Shown: positions 2,640 to 22,654 of the stretch, one piece after another
Position numbering within the stretch: position 1 is the stretch's first letter
Layout: the number at the start of each line of letters is the position of its first letter
Assembly (NCBI RefSeq): GCF_012277275.1
Contig: NZ_CP051155.1
Location: forward strand, 2,170,001 to 2,234,000
DNA length: 64,000 nucleotides
Direction of reading: 5' to 3'
From: Gephyromycinifex aptenodytis
GTDB lineage: Bacteria > Actinomycetota > Actinomycetes > Actinomycetales > Dermatophilaceae
Translations under genes and position numbers: made by a program
Notes under the pieces: generated by a model
What the model saw: only the letters and a program-made list of their open reading frames with translations
Told to the model about the DNA's origin: nothing
Databases searched by the model: none

Positions 2640-2775
2640 GGGCTCGACGACGGGCGACCGGACTTAACCTCTCGCGAGGTATCACCGTTGCGAAGACAGC
2701 GCCGGAGTCTCACCGGCTTCGCCGTACGCCAGGCCCCCGGCGCACTCGGCGCCGAGGGCCTCATAATCTCACGCC
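2640..2775 (-). promoter_or_regulatory. Cobalamin riboswitch 1 (compact form)
   Basis: On the minus strand the conserved core reads GAAGCCGGTGAGACTCCGGC, then CGCAACGGTGAT (plus positions 2681-2723), and a 3' element AAGTCCGGTCGCC (about 2653-2665). These match the B12-box, the P5/P6 region and the closing AGTCxGGxxxCC element of cobalamin riboswitches. Only about 17 bases separate CGGTGAT from AAGTCC, so the peripheral extension domain of the large class is missing. It lies about 200 bases upstream of the binding-lipoprotein start. The rest of 2443-3042 shows no gene that I can support. Confidence 0.85.
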
Positions 2776-4224: not shown

Positions 4225-5228
4225 CGGGACCCCCCAGCCGCCGTGACCGCGCCGATACCCTCCAGCGGTCGGCGCCGCATCCGGTGCGGCAACACGAACT
4301 GAGCCGCGACGTCGACGTCTTCGGCCTGTGCGTGCTCGCGACCGTTCCAGGCTGCGAGCGCCGCAGCGGCCCGCATCATCGTCAGGTCCGCGCGGTGCCC
4401 GTCGACTCCCGCCTCCAGTGAGGTGTTGGCGATCCGCAGCAGGAGTTCATCGCTGACGTCCACGCTGTGCACCCGATTCAGCGCTGCGGCGATCCGCTCG
4501 GTGATCGCCCAGCTCGGCTCGGCCCACGCCGAAGCGAAACCGGCCGGATCGGCGTCGTACCGGGCTCGTCGCTGCATGATCGTCACCCGTTCTCCCACAT
4601 CGCTGGACCCGGCCACGGTGACGCACAGACCGAAGCGGTCGAGCAGTTGCGGGCGCAGTTCGCCCTCCTCGGGGTTCATCGTGCCGACCAGCGAGAACCG
4701 AGCCGGATGCGACAGGCTCACACCCTCGCGTTCGACCGTGTTCACCCCCATCGCGGCGGCATCCAGCAGCAGGTCGACGACGTGATCGTCGAGCAGGTTG
4801 ACCTCATCCACGTACAGGATTCCCCGGTGCGCGGCCGCCAGCAGACCCGGTTCCAAGTGGCGACGCCCTTGGGTGAGCGCCGCCTCCAGGTCCAGGGTGC
4901 CCGCGACGCGGTCCTCCGTTGCACCGACCGGCAGTTCCACGACCGGCACCCGGACGTTCACCAGCTCCGGGGAGTCACCAAGGTCGGGCACGAGCTGGCC
5001 GCGGTTCTCCAGGTACTCCGCCAGCGACAGGTGGTACGGCGTCCCGGCGACCTCCTGCCGTTCTGGCAACAGCTGCGCCAACGCCCGCACCGCCGTGGAC
5101 TTGGCGGTGCCCTTCTCGCCGCGGATGAGCACACCGCCCAGTTCTGGGGAGATGACGGTGAGGATCAACGCCAGTTTGAGGTCGTCCTGACCGACGAGGG
5201 CAGCGAAGGGGTATGGGGGGCGGCTCAC
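4221..5228 (-). CDS. Magnesium/cobalt chelatase AAA+ subunit (ChlI/BchI/CobS-type), second copy
   Basis: A 335-residue AAA+ ATPase of the ChlI/BchI family, which forms the motor ring of CobN- and ChlH-type chelatases. Walker A is GEKGTAKST (about residues 37-45), Walker B is GILYVDEVNLLDD, and the family loop SLVGTMNPEEGELRPQLLDRFG is intact, with a C-terminal helical domain. It is about 50% identical by eye to the N-terminal half of the next protein upstream, so the operon carries two motor subunits: this free one and one fused to a ChlD-like half. The start overlaps the stop of the ChlI-ChlD gene by four bases. It presumably assembles with that fusion and CobN. Confidence 0.88.
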   Translation of the reverse strand: MSRPPYPFAALVGQDDLKLALILTVISPELGGVLIRGEKGTAKSTAVRALAQLLPERQEVAGTPYHLSLAEYLENRGQLVPDLGDSPELVNVRVPVVELPVGATEDRVAGTLDLEAALTQGRRHLEPGLLAAAHRGILYVDEVNLLDDHVVDLLLDAAAMGVNTVEREGVSLSHPARFSLVGTMNPEEGELRPQLLDRFGLCVTVAGSSDVGERVTIMQRRARYDADPAGFASAWAEPSWAITERIAAALNRVHSVDVSDELLLRIANTSLEAGVDGHRADLTMMRAAAALAAWNGREHAQAEDVDVAAQFVLPHRMRRRPLEGIGAVTAAGGSR

Positions 5229-7255: not shown

Positions 7256-10200
7256 GACCCGACACCCGAATCGACGGTGTCTTCCACGTCAGCCTCGGCC
7301 TCCAAGTAGGCGGAGGTGAGTGCGTCCCGCATCTCCTGCTCAGCAGCCCACAGCCCGCGCTGGGCCATGTCGAGCAGCTTGTCCAGAATGTTGTGCAACG
7401 CGTACGGGTTGACCTGGGAGAACCACTCCTGCATGCCCGGGTCCAGCGCATAGCGGCGCGCCACGCGATCCCACAGCGCGTCGTCGACGACGTCGGAGGT
7501 CGCCTCCCACCCGGCAAGAATGTCCAGGACTTTGGACAGGTCGCCCGCGCCCTTGTATCCGTGCCGCTGCAGGCCCGAGATCCACGCGTCGTTGAGGATG
7601 CGGGAGCGGATGACCAGGCGCGCCTCCTCGTTCGTCGTGCGGTTGCGGGCTCGGCGCGGGTCGGAGGAATCGCCGACGAACGACGTCGGGGCGCTGCCCC
7701 GGGCGACCGTGGCGGCCGCGATGAGGCCTCCGTAGTAGTTGTAGAAGTCCGTGCAGCTGAGCATGTCGTACTCGCGGCTGTCCTCGTTTTTCACCGTGGC
7801 GTCCATGCGGCGCAACTGGGCGGTGAAGGCCTGCGGTTGGGCTGTGCCGTACGTGCCGCGACCGTAGGCGTGCGCGGAATAGCGAACGTAGGTGGCGGCC
7901 AGATCATCCTTGGTCTCCCACGCCTTGGACTCCACCAGTTCCTCCACTCCCGCGCCGTAGCTACCCGGCGGGCAGCCGAAGACCCGCAGGGTCGCCAGCC
8001 GCCACGCCTCCTCGGCGTCGGCCCCGGCGGCCAGGTGCTCGGGCAGGTCGGCCAGGACGTGCGCGCGCAGGAAGTTGCTCTGCCCATCCTCCTCCAATGC
8101 CGCCACGAGTCCGGCCGCGTCGTCCAGCAGCTCGACCAGGTTGGGGAAGGCGTCCCGGAAGAAACCCGAGATGCGGGGCGTCACGTCGATCCGTGGACGG
8201 CCCAGCTCGGCGGGCGGAACCACCTCGACGCCGACGACGTGACCATCCGGCGCCCACCGCGGACGCAGCCCCCACAGGTGCAGGATCTCGGCGATGTCCT
8301 CACCGTGGCTGCGCATGTTGGCGGTGCCCCACAAGATGATGCCCACGTTGCGGGGGTAGGGATCTTGCGGGTTCTCCTGGGCGTACCGCTGCAGGAGGTT
8401 CTCAGCCAAAGCCACCCCCACCCGCCACGCGGCGGGGGTGGGCAGGGTGCGCGGATCCAGGGAGAAGAAGTTCCGGCCGGTGGGCAGGATGTCGGCATTG
8501 CCTCGGGTGGGGGCGCCGCTCTTACCCGGGGCGACGAAACCACCGGCGAGCGCGGTGAGCACGGACTCCATCTCGTCGCTGACGTGCGCCAACCGCGGCA
8601 GCAGGTCGTCGATGAGATAGACCAGGGCGGCCTCGACACCGCCATGCCTACAGCCCAGTACCTGCACGGCGGCTTGAGCGGCGGCCTGCGCCGGGTCTTC
8701 GGGGGCGCCGGCATCGGGGCCGGAAGCGAGCGGAACCTCTGTTGTCCCCAGGCGGGCGCAGGCGGCGTCGTACACGGCCTCGACCAGGGCGCCACACGCC
8801 TCGTTCGCCTGCCGCAGCCGGTCGATACCGGCGACATCACCCAGAGCAGGCAACACGCCAGCGACATCGGGTTCCGTCGCCAACTCCACACCCCAACAGT
8901 CGAGTACGGATTCGCGCAGACTCGGCACGTCGCCGTTGGGCAGGCGCAGGAGTTGCACGAGGTATTCCACGACCCGTTCGCGCGGCCCCAGGCCGGGGTT
9001 GTCGTCGCCGCGATCACTGGCCACCCGCCCCAGCACGTGCAGCCCGTCGCTGATGGCGTTGTCCGACAGTTCCAGCAGGTAGTGGCGGACGTGGTTGACG
9101 AACTCGCTCGGGTTGCCCAGCGCCGACTCGCGGTCGATCTCCAGGTCGACCTGCAGGTCCACCTCCTCGATCGCTTCCCACAACGCTTCGGCCACCCCTT
9201 CGGCGGCGGCGGCCGAGCGGGAGGCGGCGTCCGGGTACTCCCGGGCGAGCCGGTCGACCAGGGCGAGTTGGTCATCGAGGGCAGCGTTGCGCATCGGCGG
9301 GGTGAGGTGGTCGACCAAGGCGCAGTGGCTGCGTCGCTTGGCCTGGGTACCTTCGCCGGGGTTGTTGACGATGTAGGGGTAGATGTTGGGCAGGTCGGCC
9401 AGCGCCAACTCCGGATAGCACTCCTGGGACAAGCCGAGCGCCTTACCCGGCAGCCATTCCAGGCTGCCGTGGGTGCCGACGTGCACCACGGCATGCGCGC
9501 CGAAGACGTCGCGCATCCAGCGGTAGTGGGCCAGGTAGTGGTGCGGTGGGGGCAGCACAAGATCGTGCAGGTGCCCCTCGCTGACCTTCTCCAGTTCGCC
9601 GCGCGGGGGCTGGATCGTCACGAACACGTTCCCGTTCACGAAGCCCGCGAAGCTCAGCTCCCCCTGGTGCACGAACAACTCCCCGGGCGGAGCGCCCCAG
9701 GACTTCGCGAGGCCTTCCTGCACCCGCTGCGGCAGGTCGGCGTTCCACCGCACCGCGGTCGAGGTGTCCGCGTGGGCTTGGGCGCGGGCGTGCATCGCGT
9801 CCGGGGTCAACCATCGCTGGTCGCAGGTCAGAGCGTTGAGCATCCGATCCGAAAGTTCGTCGGCGGTGGCGAATTGCTCTGGTACGACATAACCCTCACG
9901 TGCCATCCGGGCCAGCAGCAGACGCACACTCTCGAACGAGTCCAGACCCGAGGCGCATCCGATGCGGTCGTTGCGGGGCGGGTGGTGATGGAAGACGACG
10001 GCGATACGCCGCTCGTGCGCGGGCAGACGCCGCAGCCGCGCCCAGGCCATGCTCAGGTCGGCCATCGAGTCGACCCGGTCCGGGATGGGCACCAGCCTGG
10101 TGATGAGCGCACCAGTGAGCGGATCGAGCATGTCGCTCTCCTTGGTCGCCACGACCCGGGAGATGAGCGCTCCGTCGAACTCCGGATGCGCGGCTTGCAC

Positions 10201-11181
10201 GGCGACGTCCATCGTCGGCATGCCCTGCTGGGTCGCCTCCCATTCGGTGCGCTCACCGGATGAGGTCATGGCTTGCAGGAGCGGGACGCCGAGCCCGGGG
10301 AAGACATCCGCCGAGGACGGGTCGACCGCCAACAAGGAGAAGCCCTGCAGGTTGATCACCGCGTCGACCAGGCTGGCCTCGTCGCGGCGGAAAAACCGAT
10401 TGACGATCGCGCGAGTGCCTGCCGTGCCGCGAACGGCGTCTTCGAAGCGGTGCGCGAACACCGGTATCACTTGAGCGCCGCGCTCCCGCAGTGCACCCAC
10501 CAACGCTTCTACGTGGGCGATGTTGTCGTTGAGCCAGAAGATCTGAGGAAACAGCAGGCCGATGGTGGGCGTACTCGCCTCCAGGCTGTCCAGGTAGCTC
10601 TGCTCAGCAGGGACCCAGCCGGTTTCCGGCAGCCACAGTCCTTCTGTCGGCACCGAGACCGGTGAGGCGACGGGCCCCGCGCTCGTCGCCGACCCGTCAA
10701 GGTCTTCCTCACCGGTCGGCTGCGCCTTCCCGCTGCGGCGACGCTGAACGGCTGCGACGACACCGGCCAAGGCAGCGGTGAGGTTGTCGACGCCTCCGAC
10801 ATCGAACAACCGGACCAGCGCCGCCCACGTGCCGTCCTGCAGCCCGTCGCCGTACTCGTGCGCGGTCGGCAGCACCGCGTCGTCGTCACCGGCCGGTTGC
10901 AGGTGCAGGTAGGGCCGGTTCGGGTCCCCGCGTTCGGGCAGCAGCTCTGCCAGGTCGGGCCAGGCCGGGCAGCTGGCCATCCCCCCGTGCAGGGACAACA
11001 CGACGGCATCGCAGGCCAGCGCGGTGGCCACGAAGTCCGCCGCCCCCTCGGCAGTGCCCACCTGCAACCCTGTGCGGGCAGCGATCCGCACGTCGATCCC
11101 CGCCTGCTGCAAGCGTCCCTGCACGCTCGCCAGGGTGGCCATCTCCCCGCCGCTGGCGCTGTAGTAACAGATCGACGTCAT
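7252..11181 (-). CDS. cobN: CobN-family cobaltochelatase large subunit
   Basis: At 1,309 residues this is the size expected for CobN, the porphyrinoid-binding subunit that inserts Co2+ into hydrogenobyrinate a,c-diamide. The CobN/ChlH core is clear, including FVTIQPPRGELEKVSEGHLH, VVHVGTHGSLEWLPGK, PNIYPYIVNNPGEGTQAKRR and, near the C-terminus, LSCTDFYNYYGGL. I chose ATG 11179-11181 (MTSICYYSASGGE): AAAGGA lies eight bases upstream and the ATG overlaps the radical SAM stop by four bases. The partners downstream are ChlI-ChlD and ChlI. It is unusual that the operon encodes corrinoid importers but no ring-synthesis enzymes. CobN may serve a pathway encoded elsewhere, or act on imported corrins. 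The family alone does not fix metal or direction. Confidence 0.88.
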   Translation of the reverse strand: MTSICYYSASGGEMATLASVQGRLQQAGIDVRIAARTGLQVGTAEGAADFVATALACDAVVLSLHGGMASCPAWPDLAELLPERGDPNRPYLHLQPAGDDDAVLPTAHEYGDGLQDGTWAALVRLFDVGGVDNLTAALAGVVAAVQRRRSGKAQPTGEEDLDGSATSAGPVASPVSVPTEGLWLPETGWVPAEQSYLDSLEASTPTIGLLFPQIFWLNDNIAHVEALVGALRERGAQVIPVFAHRFEDAVRGTAGTRAIVNRFFRRDEASLVDAVINLQGFSLLAVDPSSADVFPGLGVPLLQAMTSSGERTEWEATQQGMPTMDVAVQAAHPEFDGALISRVVATKESDMLDPLTGALITRLVPIPDRVDSMADLSMAWARLRRLPAHERRIAVVFHHHPPRNDRIGCASGLDSFESVRLLLARMAREGYVVPEQFATADELSDRMLNALTCDQRWLTPDAMHARAQAHADTSTAVRWNADLPQRVQEGLAKSWGAPPGELFVHQGELSFAGFVNGNVFVTIQPPRGELEKVSEGHLHDLVLPPPHHYLAHYRWMRDVFGAHAVVHVGTHGSLEWLPGKALGLSQECYPELALADLPNIYPYIVNNPGEGTQAKRRSHCALVDHLTPPMRNAALDDQLALVDRLAREYPDAASRSAAAAEGVAEALWEAIEEVDLQVDLEIDRESALGNPSEFVNHVRHYLLELSDNAISDGLHVLGRVASDRGDDNPGLGPRERVVEYLVQLLRLPNGDVPSLRESVLDCWGVELATEPDVAGVLPALGDVAGIDRLRQANEACGALVEAVYDAACARLGTTEVPLASGPDAGAPEDPAQAAAQAAVQVLGCRHGGVEAALVYLIDDLLPRLAHVSDEMESVLTALAGGFVAPGKSGAPTRGNADILPTGRNFFSLDPRTLPTPAAWRVGVALAENLLQRYAQENPQDPYPRNVGIILWGTANMRSHGEDIAEILHLWGLRPRWAPDGHVVGVEVVPPAELGRPRIDVTPRISGFFRDAFPNLVELLDDAAGLVAALEEDGQSNFLRAHVLADLPEHLAAGADAEEAWRLATLRVFGCPPGSYGAGVEELVESKAWETKDDLAATYVRYSAHAYGRGTYGTAQPQAFTAQLRRMDATVKNEDSREYDMLSCTDFYNYYGGLIAAATVARGSAPTSFVGDSSDPRRARNRTTNEEARLVIRSRILNDAWISGLQRHGYKGAGDLSKVLDILAGWEATSDVVDDALWDRVARRYALDPGMQEWFSQVNPYALHNILDKLLDMAQRGLWAAEQEMRDALTSAYLEAEADVEDTVDSGVGS

Positions 11182-12275
11182 GATGGCGTCCTTTCGCAGG
11201 TAGCGATGGTGCGGTAGATCAGGCACGTCAGGTGGGCGTTGCCCGGCTCGAGACCGGCATCCAGCGCAGCCTCCAGACGGGACGGGCAATCTCCTGGGCA
11301 GCGGCCCTGTAGCTCGCATTCCTGGCAGGGACCGGTGAGGTGGACGTCGCGGAACTGGCGCTGCAGCGCTGCCCAGTCGACGTCGCCGACATGTCCGGCA
11401 GCCCGCGCCGGGTCGCCCACACTCTGGCTGCACGGGTAGACGGTGCCGTCCGGTGCCACGGCCATGCTCTGCCCGAGGGCGGCATGGCAATACGGTGCGG
11501 GAGTTCGCGCCACAGCGTTCGGGTGCGCCCCCGCATCGGGCGCATCGGCCGGCCTGCGCACCTGCACCGTGACGGGGATGGGCGCCGGGCGCAGGGCTCG
11601 GCGTACCGTTTCCAGTTCGCGCCAGGTGAACGGCGCCGTGCGCAACCGCGCGATCTGCCGCACCGCGTGATGCAAGTCGGTGATGCCGCGCGCTACTTCC
11701 TTCGGATCAGGCAGGAGGTCGTCGCGGCCGCGCGCCGCCCCTTGGGAGACCAGCGGGTCCAGCGCAAGACCGACGACGTTCGGGTAGGCGGCCAGCAGCA
11801 AAGCAAGTTCGGCCAACCGCGTCGCGTTGACGGCGCTGAGCACAGCCGTGACCCGCACCGGGATTTCGCGGGCCGCGAGCAGCCCCAGACCGGCGAACGT
11901 CTCCCGAGCGTGGCCGCGCACCTGCTCCTGCACTTGAGGTGGGCCATCGATGCTCACCCCGACCTGCACCCGGTACCTGGCCAGCAGATCCAGTACCGGC
12001 GGCGTCAACCGGGCAGCGTTGGTCTGAACGGCCACAGTTGCTGGCAGCGCCTCGGCGGCGATGCGCTGGCAGACCTGCTCGATGATCGCCGGGTTCAACG
12101 TCGGTTCCCCACCAGCGAACTGCACGTGGAACGGCAACCCGGACTGCGCCGCCAGGTCGAGCGCTGCATGCGCGGTCGCGGGGCTCATCCGGCCGCCGAG
12201 CAGACCCCGATAGCAGTACGTGCAATCAAGGTCGCAGGCCCCGGTGGGCCACAGCACTAGAGACCGGATTGGCAT
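11178..12275 (-). CDS. Radical SAM/SPASM-domain enzyme in the corrinoid operon
   Basis: A 365-residue radical SAM protein. The [4Fe-4S] cluster motif is CDLDCTYC (Cys14, Cys18, Cys21), followed by FAGGEPTLNP (the SAM-binding GGEP) and VSIDGP. The C-terminal part has a complete-looking SPASM cysteine set: YCHAALGQ, VYPCSQ, then CQECELQGRCPGDC (C-x2-C-x5-C-x3-C) and a final LTCLIY, so two auxiliary clusters are likely. The layout resembles anaerobic sulfatase maturases and peptide-modifying maturases. The start ATG 12273-12275 has GGGAGG five bases upstream. The gene overlaps the hydrolase upstream by 19 bases and CobN downstream by four. Substrate unknown: a peptide is usual for SPASM enzymes; a tetrapyrrole is possible given the neighbours. 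Confidence 0.85.
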   Translation of the reverse strand: MPIRSLVLWPTGACDLDCTYCYRGLLGGRMSPATAHAALDLAAQSGLPFHVQFAGGEPTLNPAIIEQVCQRIAAEALPATVAVQTNAARLTPPVLDLLARYRVQVGVSIDGPPQVQEQVRGHARETFAGLGLLAAREIPVRVTAVLSAVNATRLAELALLLAAYPNVVGLALDPLVSQGAARGRDDLLPDPKEVARGITDLHHAVRQIARLRTAPFTWRELETVRRALRPAPIPVTVQVRRPADAPDAGAHPNAVARTPAPYCHAALGQSMAVAPDGTVYPCSQSVGDPARAAGHVGDVDWAALQRQFRDVHLTGPCQECELQGRCPGDCPSRLEAALDAGLEPGNAHLTCLIYRTIATCERTPS

Positions 12276-13666
12276 AGCGCCTCCCGATCCAGGATGTGTG
12301 CGGTCTTCCAATCGCCGCCGGCGCGCGCCGACCACCCCCCGGCCAGCCGGGCCTCGAGTACCGAATCGCAAGTGAGCACTTCCGGGGCAGCATGATCGAG
12401 CGGCGGGATCGCCAGCTGCGCGATGTGCGGGGACACCACCGCGACCGCGCTGCGATCTAAGGCTCTGAGCAGCATCAGTTCACGCTCCTGAGCACTCAGG
12501 TCATGAGCTGACACGACAATCAGGTCCACCCCGCGCTCGACCAGCGCCAGAGTCGCCTCCGGGTGCCGCCCGTCCCGCAGGTCCACGGCCGCGACCAGCA
12601 ACGAACCCGCTCGGGCCACAACCGCGTTCTCGGCCCGCTCGGGGCGCCGGCGCCGCCCTGAAACGCAGGCGAACGCGCCCTCGGTGTCGCTGCCGATGAC
12701 CACCGGCGCAGCGTCGTCGGCCACCTCGCGCCCCGGCGCCACCACGAGAAGCTCCGGCGCATCGGCACCATCACCGCCGGACCGGCCGACCACCACCCGT
12801 ACCCGCGTACCCGGGCGCGTTCCAGGCTCGCGCTCATCACCAGGGTGTTCTGGTGCGGGTCCACCGGCCAGCGTGGCCCAGGTCTGTGGACGGCGGCCGG
12901 ACAACGCCTCGGCCCGCTCGCACCACATCCCCTCGGCTAAGGGCATGTCGTGGACGAGGACCTGTGGCGTCGGGGAACTGCGCTCCGCACGGGTGGCGCC
13001 CTGCGCGTCGTAGATGGCCGAGCTGGCGCTGCGGGCATCGAACTGTCCGTCGACGCCGGTCCGGTTGGCCACCAACACCGGGATCCCGTTCTCGGCGGCT
13101 CTGGCACGCCAGATACGGCGCGGGTCGAGATCCCCACACGGCCAGTTGGACGGCACGAGCAGGGCTTTAGCCCCGCGCAGTCGTAACGCCCGAGCCGGAC
13201 CGGCGTAGTAGGTGTCGGCGCAGATGAGCAACCCGACCGGGCCCCACGGGGTGTCGATGGGACGTGCCTGAGCCGGTTCCCCACGGCTGGCCCAACGGCT
13301 CTCGGCGACGAGCTTGCGGTGATGGCCGGCCAACCCGGTCGGCGAGACGAGCATCGCCGAGTTGAACAGCGAACCGTCCGGGTCGCGCTCCAGGTATCCG
13401 GCCGCGCACCACACTCCCAGCCCGGAACACACCTTCTCCAACGCGTCCAGCGTCGGGCCGTGGCGAGGTTCGGCCACGGCTCGGGCTTCCTGCACGCTGC
13501 CGAAGCCATATCCCGCGACGGCGAGTTCGGGTGCCAGGACGAGCTGCGCGCCCAGATCTGCGGCGTGCCGCACCGCTTCGATGAGCGCCGCCCGATTCTG
13601 CGCCGGCTGACTCCGGTCCGGGGCCAGGTGCGCCAACCCCACCCGCACGTAGTCAGGCTGCGTCAT
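12257..13666 (-). CDS. Carbon-nitrogen hydrolase (nitrilase superfamily), double-length
   Basis: A 469-residue protein. Residues 1 to about 270 form a nitrilase-superfamily amidase domain with the Glu-Lys-Cys triad visible: Glu47 in LVLAPELAVAGYG, Lys118 in GHHRKLVAES, Cys149 in GLLICADTYY. After a Pro/Arg-rich linker, the second half again shows nitrilase-like strands (LLVAAVDLRDGRHPEATLALVERGVDLIVVSAHD) but no matching triad, suggesting a degenerate duplicated half. It overlaps the ATPase gene by 14 bases and the radical SAM gene by 19 bases. In this operon it could hydrolyse side-chain amides of corrinoids or an amide on a peptide. Neither is shown by the sequence; the amidase chemistry is the firm part. 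Confidence 0.75.
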   Translation of the reverse strand: MTQPDYVRVGLAHLAPDRSQPAQNRAALIEAVRHAADLGAQLVLAPELAVAGYGFGSVQEARAVAEPRHGPTLDALEKVCSGLGVWCAAGYLERDPDGSLFNSAMLVSPTGLAGHHRKLVAESRWASRGEPAQARPIDTPWGPVGLLICADTYYAGPARALRLRGAKALLVPSNWPCGDLDPRRIWRARAAENGIPVLVANRTGVDGQFDARSASSAIYDAQGATRAERSSPTPQVLVHDMPLAEGMWCERAEALSGRRPQTWATLAGGPAPEHPGDEREPGTRPGTRVRVVVGRSGGDGADAPELLVVAPGREVADDAAPVVIGSDTEGAFACVSGRRRRPERAENAVVARAGSLLVAAVDLRDGRHPEATLALVERGVDLIVVSAHDLSAQERELMLLRALDRSAVAVVSPHIAQLAIPPLDHAAPEVLTCDSVLEARLAGGWSARAGGDWKTAHILDREALCQSGL

Positions 13667-14750
13667 CGGCGTTCCCCATCCGCTGGAGCCATTTCAGGGC
13701 CAGCGCGTGAACGTCGGCGAGGTTGCGGTGCTGGCTGGCGCCGTACTCCGGGTGGGTCAGCGTCCACGGCAGCTGCCCGTCGGTGATGCTCAACCGCACT
13801 TCGGCACCGCTGTCCTGGACCGGGTCGGAGCGCTCCGTTCCGTACTCGGCTGGGCGACCGACGTCATACCCGGCGCGGCGCAGGCACCGCTCACCCAACG
13901 CCGCTTTCATTCCGACGCCGTCGACGACGGCGCGCGGCCGCCCAGTCGAGTCGGCCTGGAAGGTGAGCGTGGCCAGATCGAAGTGCACACCCGGCGCCGC
14001 GAACGGAGCAGCCAGCAGGCCAGCCTGGGCCAGATCCTCCGGTCCGCCGACGTGTAGTTCTTCGCTGCGCCCCGCGACCCAGACCTCGTCGGCGTAGGAC
14101 AGGATCGCTTCGATGTCGTGGGTGCACACGATGACGGCGATGCCGCGTTCGCGGCTGATCCGCCGTGTCAGTTCCAGCACCGAGACCCGTCCGGGTGGGT
14201 CCAGGAAGGCCGTCGGTTCGTCCAGGAGCATGACCTGCGGCTCTTGAGCCAGCGCCCGGGCGATCATCACCCGCTGGCGCTGCCCGTCCGACAACTCTGC
14301 GAGTTCCTGCTCGGCAAGGTGCTCGGCACTCACCGCGGCCAAGGCGTCAGCGATGATCTGCCGGTCGTGCTCGTGCAGCCTGCCGGTCAGGGACGAGTGC
14401 GGGTGCCGCCCGAGCCCGACGACGTCGCGGGCCAGCAGCCGCCCGGGGTCGAAGCGGTCGGTCAGGACGGCCGCCAGGAGCTGGGCCAGCTCACGCCGCT
14501 TCATCCCGGCCACGTCGCGACCGGCGATCTCCACCCGCCCACCGAGCATCGGCTGTAGCCCGGCAATCGAGCGCAGCAGGGTGCTCTTGCCTGCGCCGTT
14601 CGGGCCGACCAGGCCGATGAGTTGGCCTGCCTCGACACTGGCGTGCACGTCGGAGAGGACCACGTGCGCCGATCCGCGCCCGCCCGGGTAACCGACGGCG
14701 ACCTCGTGCAATGCCAACAACGGGCCGTGTTGCTGCAGCGGGCGGCTCAT
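13653..14750 (-). CDS. BtuD/FecE-like ABC importer ATPase with C-terminal extension
   Basis: A 365-residue ATPase of the BtuD/FepC group that powers the permease encoded just upstream. Walker A is GPNGAGKST (about residues 49-57), the signature is ELSDGQRQRVMIARAL, Walker B is VMLLDEPTAFLD, and the H-loop is VIVCTHDIE. The usual family length is about 260 residues. This protein has roughly 115 more after the ATPase core, containing RAVVDGVGMKAALGERCLRR and LPWTLTHPEYGASQHRNL. I do not recognise that tail. The start overlaps the permease stop by four bases; the end overlaps the hydrolase gene. Confidence 0.88.
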   Translation of the reverse strand: MSRPLQQHGPLLALHEVAVGYPGGRGSAHVVLSDVHASVEAGQLIGLVGPNGAGKSTLLRSIAGLQPMLGGRVEIAGRDVAGMKRRELAQLLAAVLTDRFDPGRLLARDVVGLGRHPHSSLTGRLHEHDRQIIADALAAVSAEHLAEQELAELSDGQRQRVMIARALAQEPQVMLLDEPTAFLDPPGRVSVLELTRRISRERGIAVIVCTHDIEAILSYADEVWVAGRSEELHVGGPEDLAQAGLLAAPFAAPGVHFDLATLTFQADSTGRPRAVVDGVGMKAALGERCLRRAGYDVGRPAEYGTERSDPVQDSGAEVRLSITDGQLPWTLTHPEYGASQHRNLADVHALALKWLQRMGNADDAA

Positions 14751-15862
14751 GTGTTCATCCCCCGGTGTCGGCGGAGCAGAATGTAGATGACCACGGGCGC
14801 CCCGAACGCGGCGTTGACAGCGTTCAGCGGCAGCACCCCATCGCCGGGGAGACCGGCAGCGACATCAGCGGCCAGCGCCAACGACGCGCCGATGAGGGCG
14901 CACCCCGGCAGCAGGATGCGGTGATCGGAGGTGGCGAAGTAGCCGCGGGCAAGGTGCGGGATGGCGATCCCGAGGAAGCCGATCGGCCCACAGAACGCGG
15001 TGGCGCTGCCCGCGAGGATGGCGCTGCTGAGCACGATGGCGCCCCGCACCAGGTGCAGGTTCATCCCCATCGTCTGTGCGTACCGGTCTCCCAAGAGCAG
15101 AGCGTTGAGCCATTTGGCCAGCAGCATCGTGAACGCGACCCCGATGAGCAGCACCGGGCCCAGCACGCGCAGGTTCGGCCAGGTCACTCCGTGGTAGCTG
15201 CCGAAACCCCAGCGCACGTACTGCGCCACCAGTTCCGGGGTGGCACCGGCCAGCAACACCGTGACGGCGGCGGAGACGAGGTAGCCGATCATCACCCCGA
15301 GCAACAGCAGGGTGTTGGAGGATTTCAGGAATCGTCCGGCGGCCAGGATGAGCAGCATCACCAGCGCTGAACCGAACGACGAAGCCAGGATGAGTCCCAG
15401 GTCCCCGCTGAGGCCCAGACCGGAAGTCAGCGACGCCGCGTACGGTGAGGTACCGGCCAGCAGGACGATGATCGCCACCCCCAGGCCCGCCCCGGAGGAC
15501 ACTCCGAGCACGTACGGGTCGGCGAGAGGGTTGCGGAACAAAGTCTGCATCTGCAGCCCGGTGACACCGAGCGAGGCGCCCACCAGAAGCGCCGTGATGG
15601 TGCGTGGGATGCGGATGTCGAACAGCACCGTCCGCACGACCGCGGGCGCTTCACCGCCGGTGATCGCGGCCAGCAGTTGCTCGGGCGGAATGCGCAGCGC
15701 ACCCAAGGTCAGGCCTGCCAGAGCGACCAGCGCGACGATGAGCAGGACCAGGGCGAACCGGGCGGTGAGACGCGCTGTTCGGGTGACGGCCCGGTCCTGC
15801 ACGGAGGACGTCGAGGCGACGTCCTCCGTGCAGCGCTCCCGGGTCGGAGCAGGTGAGCTCAT
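14747..15862 (-). CDS. FecCD/BtuC-family ABC transporter permease (second importer)
   Basis: A 371-residue polytopic permease of the BtuC/FecCD family. Signatures include DIRIPRTITALLVGASLG, QTLFRNPLADPYVLGVSSGA, and C-terminal FCGPIGFLGIAIPHLARGYF, with about nine or ten hydrophobic segments and a longer hydrophilic N-terminus before the first helix. It is paralogous to the permease at the window start. ATGA overlaps join it to the binding-protein gene upstream and the ATPase gene downstream. Together they form a complete importer under riboswitch 2. Corrinoid or cobalt-chelate uptake is inferred from regulation and neighbours. Confidence 0.88.
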   Translation of the reverse strand: MSSPAPTRERCTEDVASTSSVQDRAVTRTARLTARFALVLLIVALVALAGLTLGALRIPPEQLLAAITGGEAPAVVRTVLFDIRIPRTITALLVGASLGVTGLQMQTLFRNPLADPYVLGVSSGAGLGVAIIVLLAGTSPYAASLTSGLGLSGDLGLILASSFGSALVMLLILAAGRFLKSSNTLLLLGVMIGYLVSAAVTVLLAGATPELVAQYVRWGFGSYHGVTWPNLRVLGPVLLIGVAFTMLLAKWLNALLLGDRYAQTMGMNLHLVRGAIVLSSAILAGSATAFCGPIGFLGIAIPHLARGYFATSDHRILLPGCALIGASLALAADVAAGLPGDGVLPLNAVNAAFGAPVVIYILLRRHRGMNT

Positions 15863-17109
15863 CCCTTGGGGACCTGCTCGTAGTAGGTGAACTCGTGGTT
15901 CGGCATCAGTTCGGGGTGCAGGATCGCCACGAGGTCAGCCAGGACCAGGTCGGGGCGCACCACACCGGACTGCCAGTAGTCGTTACCCCCACCGGGGGTC
16001 AGCTTCTTGGAGAAAGTCCAGACGTCGCCGTTCTGCACCGGGGTCAGTTTGCCTAGGCGTGGGTCGTCCTTGATCGGTTCGGCCAGGCTCTCCCACCGCT
16101 CGGAATGGGTGGCCCCGATCCAGTACTGCGCCTTGGCGCCCTTGGCGAGCACCACCTCCAGATCGAGCGGTTTGGTGCCGACACCGGCGACGTCCTTGAG
16201 GACGTATTCGCCGCCGGCGTCCTTGATCTCGTTGGCGAGGTAGCTGTCGGCGGCGCTGGCGTACCAGGTGCCCTTACTCATCGCCCCGAGCAGAACCGTT
16301 GGACGCTCAGTGACGCCTTGGGCCTTGGTCGCCACCGACTGATAGTCGGCCTTGATCTTGCCGTAGACCTCGTTGGCCTGCTTCTCACGGTTGAGCAGGA
16401 TCGCCTTGAACTTGGTCCATTCCGCCCGGCCCAGCGCGGTTTTCTCCAGCCACTCCGCGTCGGCGATCACCGGGATCTTCAACTCGGCGATCTTGGCGTT
16501 CTCCGCACTTGCGGTACCGGAGGTGACGTACACATCCGGCGCCAGGGAGGCGAGTTTCTCGACGTTGACTTCGCCGTTGGCGTTTTTGATGCTCTGGATC
16601 TGACCTGAGTCGACGGCGTCCTTGGCGGGCCCCTCAGCGAGCTTCTCGGCCGAGGAGACGGCCACCAGCACGCCCATCCGGTCCAGTAGTTCGTAGGCGG
16701 GTACCTGCGTGGTGGAGCCTGCGGCAACCTTCTTGACCGGGACGCTTACCTTGGTCGCTTTGGCGAGTTCGCCCTCCAAGCTCGGTTCGGGCGCACCACA
16801 TTGAACGAACACATACGACTCCGGCGCAGCCCCCGGCGACGGTTGTGTGACCGTGACGACCTTGTAGGACTTCTTGTATTCGACGCTGATGTTGGTGGCG
16901 TCTTCGAACTCCACCTTGTCCGGGAAGTAGTCCTTGGACTCATCGAAGTCGGTGATACAGCCGTCATCGCCTGAACCCTCGGCAGAGGCTGCACCGGTCG
17001 AACCGGCGGTGCCGGAGGGGGAGGTACCGCAGGCAGGAATAAGAGCGAGCATCGGCATGAGAACCGCGGCTGCAACGATCGGGCGATTCTTCAGGAGGAG
17101 GTCAGGCAC
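15859..17109 (-). CDS. Substrate-binding lipoprotein of the second corrinoid-type importer
   Basis: A 416-residue lipoprotein with lipobox LIPACG (Cys27), a Ser/Gly/Thr-rich tether, and a class III binding fold. After the tether comes KSYKVVTVTQPSPGAAPESYVFVQCG, a longer preamble than in BtuF, then lobe 1 with VPAYELLDRMGVLVAV and LASLAPDVYVTSGTA, and lobe 2 with RPTVLLGAMSKGTWYASA. It differs clearly from the first binding protein, so the two importers may take different ligands. The GTG start has AAGGAG six bases upstream. It is the first gene behind riboswitch 2, about 80 bases from the aptamer's 3' element. Confidence 0.85.
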   Translation of the reverse strand: MPDLLLKNRPIVAAAVLMPMLALIPACGTSPSGTAGSTGAASAEGSGDDGCITDFDESKDYFPDKVEFEDATNISVEYKKSYKVVTVTQPSPGAAPESYVFVQCGAPEPSLEGELAKATKVSVPVKKVAAGSTTQVPAYELLDRMGVLVAVSSAEKLAEGPAKDAVDSGQIQSIKNANGEVNVEKLASLAPDVYVTSGTASAENAKIAELKIPVIADAEWLEKTALGRAEWTKFKAILLNREKQANEVYGKIKADYQSVATKAQGVTERPTVLLGAMSKGTWYASAADSYLANEIKDAGGEYVLKDVAGVGTKPLDLEVVLAKGAKAQYWIGATHSERWESLAEPIKDDPRLGKLTPVQNGDVWTFSKKLTPGGGNDYWQSGVVRPDLVLADLVAILHPELMPNHEFTYYEQVPKG

Positions 17110-17189
17110 GTAAAGCTCCTTGAACGTGCCGACAAAGGATGCGCAGCCGGACGGAGCCTGGCTCCGGGCGACCCGCCCTTCCTTCGAGG

Positions 17190-17345
17190 GCGTGACATGG
17201 TCGGAACCACGAGAAGGCGACCGGACTCATCCCCTTCGTGGGGCATCACCGTTGCGGGACAGTGCCGGAATCTCACCGGCTTCGCTTCTTGTGGGACGCC
17301 TGGGCGAGGCGGTCCAGGCAGCGTCAGTCTGGCACGCGCACCTCG
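17190..17345 (-). promoter_or_regulatory. Cobalamin riboswitch 2 (compact form)
   Basis: Minus-strand core GAAGCCGGTGAGATTCCGGC, then CTGTCCCGCAACGGTGAT (plus 17245-17288), and the 3' element GAGTCCGGTCGCC (about 17216-17228). It is nearly the same as riboswitch 1 in the core and also lacks the long peripheral domain: about 19 bases lie between CGGTGAT and GAGTCC. It controls the nine-gene operon that starts at 17109. The remaining sequence of 17110-17502 holds no recognisable gene; the promoter presumably lies between 17346 and 17502. Confidence 0.88.
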
Positions 17346-17502: not shown

Positions 17503-19305
17503 TCAGCGGGTTGTCGTCCAGGCCTGCCACAGGTCGTGGAAGGGGCCGGGGCGGTCGATGAGCTCTGCAGGGGTGCCCGCGTCGACGATACGGCCCTGCG
17601 CCATGACGACGATGCGGTCGGCGATGACCGCTTGGCTGAGCCGGTGCGCGACGACGATCGCGCTTCGGCCACGCACCACTTCAGCGGCGGCGCGGTCCAG
17701 AACACTCGCCCCGGCGCTGCCAGCCTCGGCGGTGGCTTCGTCGAGCACGACGACCGGCGGGTCGGCGACCAGAATGCGCGCCAGGGCGAGCTGCTGTGCT
17801 TGGGCCGCGGTCAACCGCGTCCCGAGGCGGCCCACGATCGTGTCCGCACCCTTGGGCAGTGCCCCGACCCAGTCGGTGGCACCCACCCGTTGCAGCGCGT
17901 CCTGCAACCGGCGCTCCGCGTCGCGCTCCTCCAAGCCCCCGGGCAGCGCAAGCAGCACGTCTGCACGCAATGGCCCGCTGAAGGTGTGCACGTCTTGAGA
18001 GAGCAGCACCACATCGGGTAATTCAGGGTCGCGTTGGGGTGCCACACCGACGCGCACCGCACCGGTCTGTGGTTCCAGTAGCCCCGCGATCAGCGCCGAT
18101 AGTGTCGACTTCCCGGCCCCGGAGGCACCGACGAGCGCGACGACCTCAGCGGGAGCCACCGTGAGGTTCACTCCGTCCAGCACCGGGGGGCCGTCGTCGT
18201 AGGCGAATGACACGTTCTCGATGCGGATCTCACCGGGAGCCAGAGGGGTCTGCGAGCGGTCGACCTCGACGCGCTCCTCGGGTTTGCCCTCGGCCTCCAC
18301 CGAGACTGCGGGCGCGAAGTCGATCACGCCGGTGATACGGCGTAGCGCGATGAGCGCGGCCTGGAAGTCGTCGAGGAAAAACAGTACGAAACGGATGGGG
18401 CCGAAGAGACGCAACAGGATGAGGATGGCTGCCGTGGTCTCACCCACGGTGACCGAGCCGGAACGGGCCAGGACAATCCCGATCCCGAGCAGCGCCACGA
18501 TGGTGACGGCCTCGATGAACAGCAGCCACACCGTGAGCACACTGATCAGGCGCCGCCCCCGCAAGCGCGCTTGCACCAGCGCCCAGGATCCGGCCGAGAC
18601 CGTCGCCGCCCGTTCGGCCTGCATGCCGAACGCCTGCACCGTCTCCAGGCCCTGCACCGTGGTCAGCACGTTCCCGGCGTGGACCGCCGAGGCGGTGCGC
18701 TCGGTGACGTAGGCCGCGGAGGCGCGCGGCCAATACCAGCGCACCACGAAGATGTAGCCCACCGCCCCCAGCGCGATGGCGAGCAGGAAGGCCGGATTCG
18801 CAACTCCGATCCCGGCGGTGGAGATGATGATGCTGACCGAGGTGGATACCAGCCGGGGCGCCACGATCATCGAGGCTTCCCGTGCCCGCGCGACGTCGTC
18901 CCCAACGCGCGCCACCAGATCGGCGGTTCCCACCCGGTCGACCACCGGGTGCGGTAGCCGCAACGCCGAGCGCACGAGGTCCTCGCGCAGCCGGGCTAGG
19001 GCAGCAGCGAAGAACCCTGGCGCTGCGGCCAACCCGACCCCACCGGCGATCCCGCCCAATACGACGGAGCCGAGCATGAGCGTGGCTGCCAGCGGCAGCA
19101 TGTGCAGGCCGTCACCGGCGCTGACCGCGTCGACGACTCGTCCTGCTTGGTGGGGTAGCACCAGATCCAGCAGGGCGGCGGCCGTCATCGCGAGCACCGC
19201 CATCACCAGGTAATGCCCGCGTCCTTTGCCGGCCCGCCAGGCCAGCGTCACCGCTCGCCCGGTCGAGGCCAGGGGAAGGCCTGGGGCCGTGGTGTCCTCA
19301 CTCAT
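17503..19305 (-). CDS. ABC half-transporter with intact ATP-binding motifs but degenerate signature
   Basis: A 600-residue fusion of an exporter-type membrane domain (about six helices, residues 30-320) and an ATPase domain. Walker A is GASGAGKST (393-401), Walker B is VVVLDEAT with Glu523, and the H-loop is VVAHRLS with His554. The LSGGQ signature is replaced by LTAAQ (498-502). Its partner, encoded immediately upstream and overlapping by four bases, has the opposite pattern. The pair should therefore form a heterodimer with one competent ATP site. Exporter-fold ABC proteins can also import: the mycobacterial B12 transporter Rv1819c is one example. The cobalamin riboswitch upstream makes a corrinoid, or something made when B12 is short, the likely cargo. 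Confidence 0.85.
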   Translation of the reverse strand: MSEDTTAPGLPLASTGRAVTLAWRAGKGRGHYLVMAVLAMTAAALLDLVLPHQAGRVVDAVSAGDGLHMLPLAATLMLGSVVLGGIAGGVGLAAAPGFFAAALARLREDLVRSALRLPHPVVDRVGTADLVARVGDDVARAREASMIVAPRLVSTSVSIIISTAGIGVANPAFLLAIALGAVGYIFVVRWYWPRASAAYVTERTASAVHAGNVLTTVQGLETVQAFGMQAERAATVSAGSWALVQARLRGRRLISVLTVWLLFIEAVTIVALLGIGIVLARSGSVTVGETTAAILILLRLFGPIRFVLFFLDDFQAALIALRRITGVIDFAPAVSVEAEGKPEERVEVDRSQTPLAPGEIRIENVSFAYDDGPPVLDGVNLTVAPAEVVALVGASGAGKSTLSALIAGLLEPQTGAVRVGVAPQRDPELPDVVLLSQDVHTFSGPLRADVLLALPGGLEERDAERRLQDALQRVGATDWVGALPKGADTIVGRLGTRLTAAQAQQLALARILVADPPVVVLDEATAEAGSAGASVLDRAAAEVVRGRSAIVVAHRLSQAVIADRIVVMAQGRIVDAGTPAELIDRPGPFHDLWQAWTTTR

Positions 19306-21128
19306 GTCAAGGCCTGGACGTAGTCGGGCTCGCTCAACAACTCGCTGTGTCGCCCGCGGCGCAGCACGGAGCCGTTCTCGTCCAACTGCACCACCTCATC
19401 TGCCGCCGCAAGGAGTTCCGGTGTCGTCGTGAGCAGCAGGGTGGGTCCTCCCCCGCGGGCCTGCCGCAGTTGGTTGGCGATGCGGGCCGTGGTCACGGCA
19501 TCGACGTTAGTGGTGGGTTCGTGCAGAACAAGCAGATCAGCGGAGCGATATAACGCTCGGGCCAAAGCGACTCGTTGCCGTTGACCGCCGGATAGTGTGC
19601 GGCCTTCGGGGCCGACGCGGGTATCGAGCCCATCGCGTTGGGTGCGGGCCACCTCGTCGCAGGTCGTCGCAGCCAGGACGGCAGCAAGCCGCTGATCACC
19701 GGTCGGCCCATCCGGCGGCGGATCGAGGTCATCGCCGAGAGCGGCGGTGTCGGCCGGGGATTCGTAGCCGCAGATATTGGTGCGCAGCGTGCCGTCGAAC
19801 AGATCCACCTGATGCGGGGGCGCAAGGATCAGCCGCCGTTGCGTCTCGATCCTCAGTTGAGCCAAATCGACCTCGCCCCAATACAGCTGACCGCTCTGGG
19901 GTGACTTCCGGCGTGCCAACAGGTCCGCGAGCGCCTCCGCGACGAGACCGGGCGAGAGCACTGCCACCAGCCCGCGCACTTCCAGATCCAGGTCGACGGG
20001 CTGTTCCAACCGGCCGGCCAGCGTGACATCGCGCAGCTGCAGGCGGCGGGACTCGGGCTGGTCCTCGCAGCTGCCCTGAGTCAACGCCGGCGGGGTCTCT
20101 AGCACGCCGATGACCCGATCGGCCGAGGCCTGGGAGGCACTGAACACCGCAGCCGTGTCGATACCGATGCTGCGCAGTGGCGGCCCCATCGTCTGCGCCA
20201 GACCGGCAACGGCGGCGACATCGCCCACGGTGAGTTGACCGGCCAGCCCCAGGTAGGCGGCCAACACGGTCAGCCCCACGATGAAGAATCCGACGACGAC
20301 GTTCACGCCGGCCGCGTACGCGCCGCGGACGATCCTGGTGCGCAGCGTGGCCGCGAGCGCCCGGTCTCCAACGGCAGCGAAGCGGGTGACGGCCTGGTCT
20401 TGGGCCCGCAGGCCTTGCACGACCCGCAGCCCGGCAACGAAATCGGCCGCCGATCCGGAGGCAGCAGCCTCGGCCGTGCGTTCCACCCGGGTGTAGGGCC
20501 GGATCGGGCGGATACCGCGCACCGAGACGAACACAATGATCGGCACCGACACGGCGACGACTGCTGCGAGCCGCCAGTCCAGCACGGCAAGGGCGATGAT
20601 CGAGCCACCCACCGTCACGGCATGTCCAGGCAGGGTCGTGACCGTCGTCATCCCGCGCGAGGTCGCCGGCACGTCCGTGGAGGCGACGCTGACGAGGTCG
20701 CCGGGCAGCCGGGCGGGGCCGCCGAGACCGCGTGGGTCCAGGAGCCGGTCGATGAGCGCCAGACGCAGGTCGTGCTGGACCACGCAGGCGCCGACGTCCC
20801 CGGACAGCCGTAAGCCGGTGGCGATACAGCGCAGGCCGTACAACACCAGGATCAAGACGCACCAGCCGGCGGCGGCGAGGACATCCCCTGCGACCAGACC
20901 GCTGTCGATCGAGCGGCCCACCGCCAAGGGCACGAGCAGCCCGAGTGCACTGGTGAGGATCGATCCAAGGCTGGAGGGGATGAGCCAGCGGCCTCCGCCT
21001 CGAATGAGCCGCTTCACCAGGGCGTCACCGTCAGCGATCCCGGCGGTGGGGATGGCGCGCTGCCCCAGCGGGGGAGCATCGGCGGGCACGCGGCCCGGAC
21101 GCCACACCCTCACGAGACCTCCGAGCAT
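19302..21128 (-). CDS. ABC half-transporter with degenerate ATP site but canonical signature
   Basis: A 608-residue exporter-type half-transporter. The membrane domain has about six helices. In the ATPase domain the Walker A position reads LSPGLVAEAL (about 391-400) with no GxxGxGKS/T. The Walker B aspartate is His (LLVLHEPTTNVD, His536) and the H-loop histidine is absent (LLLTTTPELL). The signature LSGGQRQRVALARAL (512-526) is perfect. It can therefore donate the signature to the partner's site but can hardly bind ATP normally itself. The start overlaps the upstream unknown gene by 19 bases and the end overlaps the partner by four, so one operon is likely. Confidence 0.85.
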   Translation of the reverse strand: MLGGLVRVWRPGRVPADAPPLGQRAIPTAGIADGDALVKRLIRGGGRWLIPSSLGSILTSALGLLVPLAVGRSIDSGLVAGDVLAAAGWCVLILVLYGLRCIATGLRLSGDVGACVVQHDLRLALIDRLLDPRGLGGPARLPGDLVSVASTDVPATSRGMTTVTTLPGHAVTVGGSIIALAVLDWRLAAVVAVSVPIIVFVSVRGIRPIRPYTRVERTAEAAASGSAADFVAGLRVVQGLRAQDQAVTRFAAVGDRALAATLRTRIVRGAYAAGVNVVVGFFIVGLTVLAAYLGLAGQLTVGDVAAVAGLAQTMGPPLRSIGIDTAAVFSASQASADRVIGVLETPPALTQGSCEDQPESRRLQLRDVTLAGRLEQPVDLDLEVRGLVAVLSPGLVAEALADLLARRKSPQSGQLYWGEVDLAQLRIETQRRLILAPPHQVDLFDGTLRTNICGYESPADTAALGDDLDPPPDGPTGDQRLAAVLAATTCDEVARTQRDGLDTRVGPEGRTLSGGQRQRVALARALYRSADLLVLHEPTTNVDAVTTARIANQLRQARGGGPTLLLTTTPELLAAADEVVQLDENGSVLRRGRHSELLSEPDYVQALT

Positions 21129-21877
21129 GGCCGTGCGCCAAAGGCCGACCTGAGCGCACGAGCATCACAACTGGCCTCGTTCACCGCCAGGCCGATTCCC
21201 TGGAGCGCTTCGTTCGGCGACTCGGCGTGCGAGCTGGGTGTTCCTCGATGGTGTTCAGGGTGCAGCAACGTCACCGTGAGGGCTTCTCGAGGTTGCTTCG
21301 CAGTGTCACCGGCTTCATGCGTCGACGACGGGTCGTCGGCTTCAAGTGCTGCTTCTCGGGCTATGCAGTCAAGCACGTCTGCGACCTCGTGGCGGGGTGG
21401 GCGGTCGAGCACGACAAACACGTGCAGACCTACGAGCGGGGCGGGGGTCGGCTCTGATTCTCCCTGCCCCGACCCGCGCTCGCACTCCGGCGCCCCACTT
21501 TCGCGGGGTCCCTGCTGCGGCAAGGGCAACGGCGCGGCTATCGCCACCACGAACACTCGTAGCGAGGGTCCGTGCCGGTAGGCCAACCCCGCCCGTGCCA
21601 CATTGCCGTTCACGCGGCGCACCAGCACTTCCTCCGGTTCCCAGCCCAGCAGCCGGGCAACGGTGCGCTCCGGCAGGGTCTGCGGTGAGTTCGGCGGGGT
21701 CTGCACGCACTCTTCATGTAGGCAGACCCGGCGTACAACGCCCGTCATCAGTGCGCCGTTCGGGCTGAGTTGGTAGGCACGGCAAGGCTGTTCACAGTCG
21801 GCGATGAGCATTCGGCCGACTCGGTGGATGCGCAGCCAGCCGCGCTCTTCGACCAGGTTCGTCACGAGCCGGGTCAT
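21110..21877 (-). CDS. Unrecognised protein with four clustered cysteines, first main gene after riboswitch 3
   Basis: I do not recognise this 255-residue protein. The N-terminal third (residues 1-110) looks structured and carries Cys28, Cys32, Cys52 and Cys57 (C-x3-C-x19-C-x4-C) in IADCEQPCRAYQ and RRVCLHEEC, a possible metal or iron-sulfur site. It is followed by RTVARLLGWEPEEVLVRRV. The second half is hydrophilic and low-complexity except for a predicted strand, LVGLHVFVVLD. The ATG at 21875-21877 overlaps the stop of a 21-codon ORF (ATGA). A GTG at 21953-21955 in the same frame would add 26 residues. It overlaps the ABC gene by 19 bases. It may be a metal-binding or sensory partner of that transporter. 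Confidence 0.55.
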   Translation of the reverse strand: MTRLVTNLVEERGWLRIHRVGRMLIADCEQPCRAYQLSPNGALMTGVVRRVCLHEECVQTPPNSPQTLPERTVARLLGWEPEEVLVRRVNGNVARAGLAYRHGPSLRVFVVAIAAPLPLPQQGPRESGAPECERGSGQGESEPTPAPLVGLHVFVVLDRPPRHEVADVLDCIAREAALEADDPSSTHEAGDTAKQPREALTVTLLHPEHHRGTPSSHAESPNEALQGIGLAVNEASCDARALRSAFGARPCSEVS

Positions 21878-21939
21878 CGGGAGCGCCCTTGGTCGTGGGC
21901 GATCTGTGGCCTCTGCTGCGCAGGCGCGGTCGTTCTCAT
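21874..21939 (-). CDS. Possible 21-residue leader ORF coupled to the four-cysteine protein
   Basis: An ATG at 21937-21939 opens a 21-codon frame whose TGA overlaps the ATG of the following gene (ATGA). AGAAGAG lies about six bases upstream. The peptide is polar (Gln, Arg and Ala rich) and unlike any family I know. It could simply couple translation to the next gene, or the long in-frame GTG start of that gene could be the real one and this frame spurious. Confidence 0.3.
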   Translation of the reverse strand: MRTTAPAQQRPQIAHDQGRSR

Positions 21940-22101
21940 GCCGGTCTCTTCTCACCAGGTCCAGAGCGCTTGGGGTCCCGAGCGGGGGACTGAGCGCGGC
22001 GGGACCCCGGGACGGGGCCGGAGGAATGGGTGAATCTCAGCCCCGCCCCGGGGCGTCGGGTAGGCCGAAGCGCGTTAGTACGCAGCGGCCGGGCAGGCGC
22101 T

Positions 22102-22185: not shown

Positions 22186-22309
22186 GAGACCTCCCGAAAG
22201 CGACTCGGGGGTTGATCGGCCACTGGCCTTCGCGGACAGCATTAGCCGCGAGTGCTGGGGCCGCCTTCCCACGAGGCGACGACTGCAGGGCGCGCTGCAC
22301 GGCGTGCGA

Positions 22310-22495
22310 CGCACTGGCAGGTCTTCGGACTTGTGGGCGCTGCCGGGCCGGAGATCCAGCTCGGGTTTCTACTGGCCGTCGCTTCCCAGGTGGTCGTTCC
22401 CAGTGCTCATGACGGCGTTCGTTCCCACTCACCGCTGCGGGGCAGTCCCGGATTCGCACCGGGTTCCCTCTTGCGACTCCCCGCCGAGGCGGGGA
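22310..22495 (-). promoter_or_regulatory. Cobalamin riboswitch 3 (extended form)
   Basis: Minus-strand core GAGGGAACCCGGTGCGAATC, then ACTGCCCCGCAGCGGTGAG (plus about 22428-22475), and 3' element AAGTCCGAAGACCTGCCAGT (about 22317-22336). About 90 bases of peripheral sequence lie between them, including repeated CTGGGAA motifs. This is the large architecture, in contrast to the compact riboswitches 1 and 2. It heads the unit with the tiny ORFs, the four-cysteine protein and the asymmetric ABC pair. No other feature is supported in 21940-22650 apart from the small ORFs listed. Confidence 0.92.
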
Positions 22496-22654
22496 GAACC
22501 AGCGCTGCCAGCTTAGCCGTCGGGATCGTCGCAGGTGCTTCATTGACTCCTACCCACAGCGGCGGCGCTGGGTGGCGCGGCCGTCTGCCCCCCCGGGGGT
22601 AGCCACTTGGATCAGGTCGGGGGTGGCCGCGACGGGGGGTTGTCGGGGTATTGG

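Follow-up and report, generated by a model that had tools for sequence, protein, structure and literature searches.

A conserved actinobacterial pair of ABC half-transporters with a single predicted working ATP site, encoded downstream of a cobalamin riboswitch in Gephyromycinifex aptenodytis

The silent second ATP site of asymmetric ATP-binding cassette (ABC) pumps is a long-standing question, to which the common reply is that it retains ATP as glue. TM287/288, BmrCD, TmrAB and MsRv1273c/72c, in which one consensus and one degenerate site are built from two half-transporter subunits, reportedly retain ATP binding at the degenerate one (for example MsRv1273c/72c, PMC12038006). In yeast Pdr5, one site is changed in every motif and the other is complete (PMC7756269); the frame of its P-loop is kept, with Cys in place of Lys, and ATP is found in the deviant site (PMC8421411). 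Here we describe two ABC half-transporter genes, A and B, of the actinobacterium Gephyromycinifex aptenodytis, located at positions 17503-21128 of a 64,000-nucleotide stretch of contig NZ_CP051155.1 (positions 2,170,001 to 2,234,000, hereafter the window). One of the two composite ATP sites of this pair has lost its P-loop altogether, the same loss is found throughout an actinobacterial family of such pairs, and in the window the pair lies downstream of a strong cobalamin riboswitch.

Subunit B (19302-21128, minus strand; 608 aa) and subunit A (17503-19305, minus strand; 600 aa) are encoded in that order by open reading frames (ORFs) that overlap by 4 nt. A Pfam scan identified ABC_membrane (PF00664) and ABC_tran (PF00005) in both proteins, i.e. 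a transmembrane domain and a C-terminal nucleotide-binding domain (NBD), as in type IV (exporter-fold) half-transporters. Subunit A retains the residues of a live site, namely A-loop Tyr369, Walker A (GASGAGKST, 393-401), Q-loop Gln437 (LLSQD), Walker B Asp522-Glu523 (VVLDE) and H-loop His554 (AHRLS), and is degenerate in its signature, LTAAQ (498-502), where the last Gln survives, and in its D-loop, EAGS (527-530, within EAGSA). Subunit B has an intact signature, LSGGQ (512-516), and D-loop Asp543 (TNVD); its P-loop position reads LSPGLVAEALAD, residues 392-400 being SPGLVAEAL, and no P-loop is present. In addition, B lacks the A-loop Tyr, and the Q-loop Gln is replaced by His439 (PPHQ), the Walker B Asp by His536 (LVLHEP) and the H-loop His by Thr568 (LLTTTP), which leaves Walker B Glu537 as the sole catalytic residue on this side. 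According to these motif tables, a consensus and a degenerate composite site are split between A and B. Since GK[ST] does not occur anywhere in the whole of subunit B, Walker A has not been displaced to another part of the protein, a possibility that the initial annotation had raised.

The motifs listed in that annotation could all be read in the two ORFs: Walker A, the Walker B Glu, the H-loop and LTAAQ in A, and in B an LSGGQ signature, a missing P-loop, His for the Walker B Asp and a lost H-loop His. The A-loop and Q-loop of B and the D-loop of A are degenerate as well and extend its list. Its description of one complete site holds; that of a second site without every catalytic element goes slightly too far, as Glu537 of B and the final Gln of the A signature both survive. 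Because neither subunit alone makes a complete site as a homodimer, we infer that A and B must pair. In a head-to-tail NBD dimer of the standard kind, Walker A and Walker B of subunit A would lie opposite LSGGQ of subunit B as one complete site, and the missing P-loop of B opposite LTAAQ of A as a dead site.

The window pair was aligned with 47 more pairs from Actinomycetota, obtained by a whole-genome search using B and from named Cutibacterium contigs, to give 48 aligned pairs. In subunit A, the Walker A Lys is present in 48/48 and the A-loop Tyr in 47/48, followed by the Q-loop Gln, Walker B Asp/Glu and H-loop His (47/47 each); the Gly-Gly of the signature was found in 0/47 and the D-loop Asp in 7/47. 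In subunit B, S-G-G-Q and the D-loop Asp are invariant (48/48 each), and Walker A, the Q-loop Gln and the H-loop His are missing throughout (0/48 each); the Walker B Asp occurs in three of the 48 and the Glu in 13, most others having Asp at the Glu position. As an in-genome control, five other ABC pairs were considered: the Walker A Lys is present in 10/10 of their NBDs, and the degenerate ones are changed at one or a few residues. Chance or error is excluded because the pattern holds in 48 pairs, while the ten control NBDs retain the Walker A Lys; this disposes both of degeneracy by chance in a single genome and of the sequencing error that the initial annotation had considered. Its proposal of a heterodimer in which one site is complete and the other dead is supported, and the arrangement proves to be conserved across the family. 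Its remark that losses in most asymmetric pairs are limited to one or two residues fits both the in-genome control and a review (PMC7756269) and has to be qualified by Pdr5, for which the same review describes changes in every motif of one site.

The column entropies of the altered motifs fall on both sides of the NBD averages. In B, the P-loop (2.16) and the A-loop (2.61) are drifting relative to an average of 1.74, and Walker B (0.68), the H-loop (1.24) and the Q-loop (1.40) lie below it with a new consensus; in A, the D-loop (0.95) and signature (1.21) have likewise settled on a new consensus below an average of 1.35. A drifting P-loop and A-loop, with a conserved new consensus elsewhere, point to loss of nucleotide binding and retention of a structural interface, which suggests that the dead site no longer binds ATP and that one ATP would be used per cycle. 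A deep subgroup of the family (L068-L071, L086 and L169) retains the D-loop Asp in A (LLDPR) in those members inspected, with the P-loop of B already gone, and may be a record of the order in which the motifs were lost; several of its members adjoin guaA/IMP-dehydrogenase-like genes. Open-licence papers yielded nothing on such pairs in Actinomycetota or on P-loop-less ABC exporters, subscription journals being outside the scope.

A predicted model of subunit B alone keeps the exporter fold (predicted local distance difference test, pLDDT, 76.5; predicted template modelling score, pTM, 0.51), and in it strand beta-3 (387-391) is followed, after two residues, by a helix (394-404) without a P-loop. 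A structure search with this model matched MsbA, TM287/288, TmrAB and MsRv1273c/72c. By sequence, the solved structures that matched best were P-glycoproteins, MsbA, TM287/288 and YbtQ, none of them close, and YbtPQ and IrtAB were present among the sequence or fold matches.

In the initial sample of 40 pairs, roughly 20 have, no more than 10 kb away, genes for non-ribosomal peptide synthetases (NRPS), FecCD, substrate-binding proteins, siderophore-interacting proteins or ornithine monooxygenases. A quick tree unites the window pair with two pairs of the Austwickia group and four from Cutibacterium in one clade (100% support in the Shimodaira-Hasegawa-like approximate likelihood ratio test, SH-aLRT), which is nested within the siderophore-linked pairs. 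The A and B genes are adjacent in the collected loci and overlap in the window and in Cutibacterium. An acyltransferase-like ORF, of hexapeptide-repeat type by eye, was observed between B and A in the Austwickia group (L047:8461-9078 and L048:10811-11419), and no B12 genes are located directly beside these pairs. A search of plasmids returned distant matches only.

Three cobalamin-class riboswitches, all on one strand, were identified in the window; genes for uptake and synthesis are the usual targets of repression by B12 riboswitches. The cobalamin riboswitch at 22299-22518 (minus strand; RF00174, 94.3 bits) is located upstream of the ABC pair in the same orientation, 1.17 kb from B, in agreement with the cobalamin control suggested by the initial annotation, and from this arrangement B would be co-transcribed with it. 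The intervening 281-aa ORF (21110-21955, minus strand) overlaps the start of B by 19 nt, has a coding-like GC by codon position and is probably the first gene of the ABC operon. No homologue of it was found in 395 genomes and it has no Pfam or NCBIfam match; the Cys pairs CxxxC and CxxxxC were noted in its sequence. An adenosylcobalamin (AdoCbl) riboswitch (17164-17309, minus strand; RF01482, 55.4 bits) lies upstream of the operon running from BtuFCD to CbiZ, and the third riboswitch (2636-2764, minus strand; RF00174, 33.4 bits) precedes genes for a second substrate-binding protein and FecCD permease (66-2514). No riboswitch at gathering score was detected beside other relatives in the 14 loci checked, nor in the Cutibacterium loci, where a genome search gave a weak cobalamin aptamer before the first gene of the operon (24.2 bits, under the gathering score). 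In genome G010, a cobalamin riboswitch (L090:12913-13037, plus strand) is located 16 kb from the ABC pair, ahead of a gene for a peptide/nickel-type substrate-binding protein.

The middle operon of the window (3043-17109, minus strand) has the order BtuF-BtuC-BtuD-nitrilase-radical SAM/SPASM-CobN-ChlD-ChlI-CbiZ. It encodes a BtuF-like substrate-binding protein (Peripla_BP_2; 15859-17109), a BtuC-like FecCD permease (14747-15862), a BtuD-like ABC ATPase (13653-14750), a carbon-nitrogen hydrolase of the nitrilase superfamily (12257-13666), a radical SAM/SPASM protein (11178-12278), a CobN-type chelatase large subunit (PF02514; 7252-11337, start approximate), which is a second copy in the genome, ChlD-like (5225-7255) and ChlI-like (4221-5228) AAA+ chelatase subunits (together 4221-7255), and CbiZ, an adenosylcobinamide amidohydrolase of corrinoid salvage (3043-4224). 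In Cutibacterium, these B12-type genes and the pair form a single gene string that starts with the orthologue of the BtuF-like gene (substrate-binding protein-FecCD-BtuD-radical SAM-CobN-ChlD-ChlI-B-A). The nitrilase and CbiZ are present only in the window's version, the nitrilase being seen neither in the Cutibacterium nor in the Austwickia-group versions. Genome G011 has an equivalent operon behind a weak aptamer.

The radical SAM gene, taken as the operon marker, was confined, among the genomes searched, to that of the window, Cutibacterium and one genome related to Austwickia. In a family-level sample of 186 genomes it occurs in two, both within the three that carry the clade's pair, a coincidence with a chance of about 2 in 10,000, which is optimistic given shared descent and the counting of the window genome itself; across 395 genomes sampled class-wide, only the window genome and Cutibacterium have it. 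The CobN of the island shares 53% identity with the copy in the Cutibacterium operon and 36% with the paralogue in its own genome. The latter, a separate CobN at 128 kb, and a CbiC gene make de novo B12 synthesis likely in the window genome. Given the CobN identities and the CbiX-type chelatases that Cutibacterium also carries, the island chelatase is probably not, or not only, an enzyme of de novo synthesis. For relatives of CobN a removing direction is possible, as with HmuS (PMC12583661).

It is probable that A and B are the two halves of an obligate heterodimer, a type IV ABC transporter that has only one functional ATP site, was recruited into a cobalamin-riboswitch regulon and has a corrinoid or related chelate as its substrate. 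ATP would be held by the A-loop, Walker A, Q-loop, Walker B and H-loop of A and clamped by LSGGQ and the D-loop of B. This single ATP would shut the Walker motifs of A onto LSGGQ of B, and hydrolysis, occurring there only, would reopen that side; the opposite interface, between the lost P-loop of B and LTAAQ/EAGS of A, would serve without nucleotide as a structural hinge, so that one ATP would drive one cycle. In the clade of the window, the pair would have been recruited from a siderophore-linked family into the cobalamin-riboswitch regulon, which also contains a BtuFCD-like importer and a dedicated radical-SAM/CobN/ChlD/ChlI module. From gene context, its most likely cargo is a corrinoid, or else a tetrapyrrole or metal chelate related to corrinoids that this module handles.

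Several observations weigh against this proposal. Pdr5 retains ATP in its deviant site despite the Lys to Cys change and the alteration of every motif (PMC8421411), the window's B retains Glu537, and the model of B is of moderate confidence and describes a single chain, not the heterodimer. The coupling to the operon is not strict, since G010 has the ABC pair without a second CobN or radical SAM gene and in G011 the pair is far from the operon, and a metal chelate of another kind might account for the linkage. The connection to B12 is best taken as a good lead, short of a result. A wider reading, to be held tentatively and at less than even weight, is that a widespread actinobacterial ABC family runs on one nucleotide per cycle with one site devoid of ATP binding, and in one clade serves as the arm for corrinoids or metal tetrapyrroles in a B12-repressed pathway not yet characterised, comprising import by BtuFCD, modification by radical SAM and a second CobN-ChlD-ChlI, and passage across the membrane by AB.

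It might be argued that the degenerate site binds ATP without hydrolysis, with ATP as glue, as in Pdr5, TM287/288 and MsRv1273c/72c. The well-studied degenerate-site exporters do hold nucleotide there (PMC7756269, PMC8421411, PMC12038006), and the retained Glu537 fits this explanation; however, those proteins keep the P-loop or its frame, and B has lost the P-loop in 48/48 together with the A-loop Tyr, at drifting positions, so that bound ATP appears quite improbable here. That B is a decaying pseudogene, a frameshift or a sequencing error would account for the loss of several motifs in one protein, but its full-length ORF, its coding-type GC pattern and the SGGQ and D-loop Asp kept in 48/48 homologues from many families reject this explanation, whose probability is negligible.

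With regard to substrate, the siderophore-type genes near about half of the sampled relatives, and the Austwickia-group pairs without adjoining B12 genes, would also suit an ordinary siderophore or small-molecule exporter, for which the B12 neighbourhood is incidental or a tie of expression only. This is unlikely, as no NRPS or siderophore gene was seen within the window's cluster, a strong cobalamin riboswitch stands ahead of the pair, the Cutibacterium pair is inside the CobN operon, and the genomes of the clade include all those found with the radical SAM operon. An exporter-fold corrinoid importer, in the manner of Rv1819c/BacA or IrtAB, is a choice of direction within the proposed heterodimer rather than a different machine, and the usual repression of uptake and synthesis genes by B12 riboswitches would be in keeping with it. 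BacA carries cobalamin both ways (PMC10960864) and IrtAB imports siderophores (PMC10246721). Import is nevertheless doubtful, if somewhat possible, as a BtuFCD-type importer is already in the regulon and Pfam gives neither a fused siderophore-interacting domain nor an SbmA/BacA domain in A or B.

Two other genes of the window may be mentioned. A 1027-aa ResIII/DUF3427/PLD-like helicase (48851-51931, plus strand) strongly matches the PADLOC model of a type IV methyl-directed restriction enzyme. The DnaB replicative helicase (52444-55953, minus strand; 1170 aa) contains an intein (Intein_splicing 790-1109, LAGLIDADG), and its N domain ends at 128 and its DnaB_C match begins at 612, which suggests a second insertion.

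For the field, the most useful point is a natural one-site family with the ABC exporter fold. A natural, widely conserved family whose silent site is without a P-loop makes the glue question directly testable: should one bound ATP suffice for transport by AB, glue would be unnecessary. In addition, the association with a B12-repressed operon that carries a second chelatase hints at a step in the handling of corrinoids or cobalt, as yet undescribed, in Cutibacterium and its relatives.

Among described systems, the siderophore-cluster half-transporter pairs of Actinomycetota belong to the same family and share the motif pattern of the window pair, their neighbours being NRPS, FecCD or siderophore genes, whereas the clade of the window is associated with a B12/CobN operon. 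Rv1819c/BacA is homodimeric and has an SbmA-like membrane domain. As a precedent proposed by the initial annotation, it holds as an exporter-fold ABC protein linked to B12 and is otherwise weak: the window pair has two different subunits, PF00664 is the sole membrane domain found in A and B, which rejects BacA membership, and the siderophore-linked pairs are closer. IrtAB and YbtPQ are alike in being type IV heterodimers for metal chelates; however, both sites of IrtAB bind ATP (PMC10246721) and the protein carries a siderophore-interacting domain, and assignment to the IrtAB type was rejected because no SIP/FAD_binding_9 domain was found in A or B and one site is without a P-loop. Pdr5 differs in its ABCG-type domain order and single polypeptide, and its degeneracy has an origin unrelated to that of the window family. 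TM287/288, BmrCD, TmrAB and MsRv1273c/72c are similar in fold and in subunit plan. Unlike these exporters, the window pair has lost the P-loop, A-loop, Q-loop Gln, Walker B Asp and H-loop His on one side and the signature and D-loop on the other, and the absence of the P-loop in 48/48 argues against ATP binding at the degenerate site. The family thus appears to go one step beyond both the degenerate exporters that retain ATP and Pdr5.

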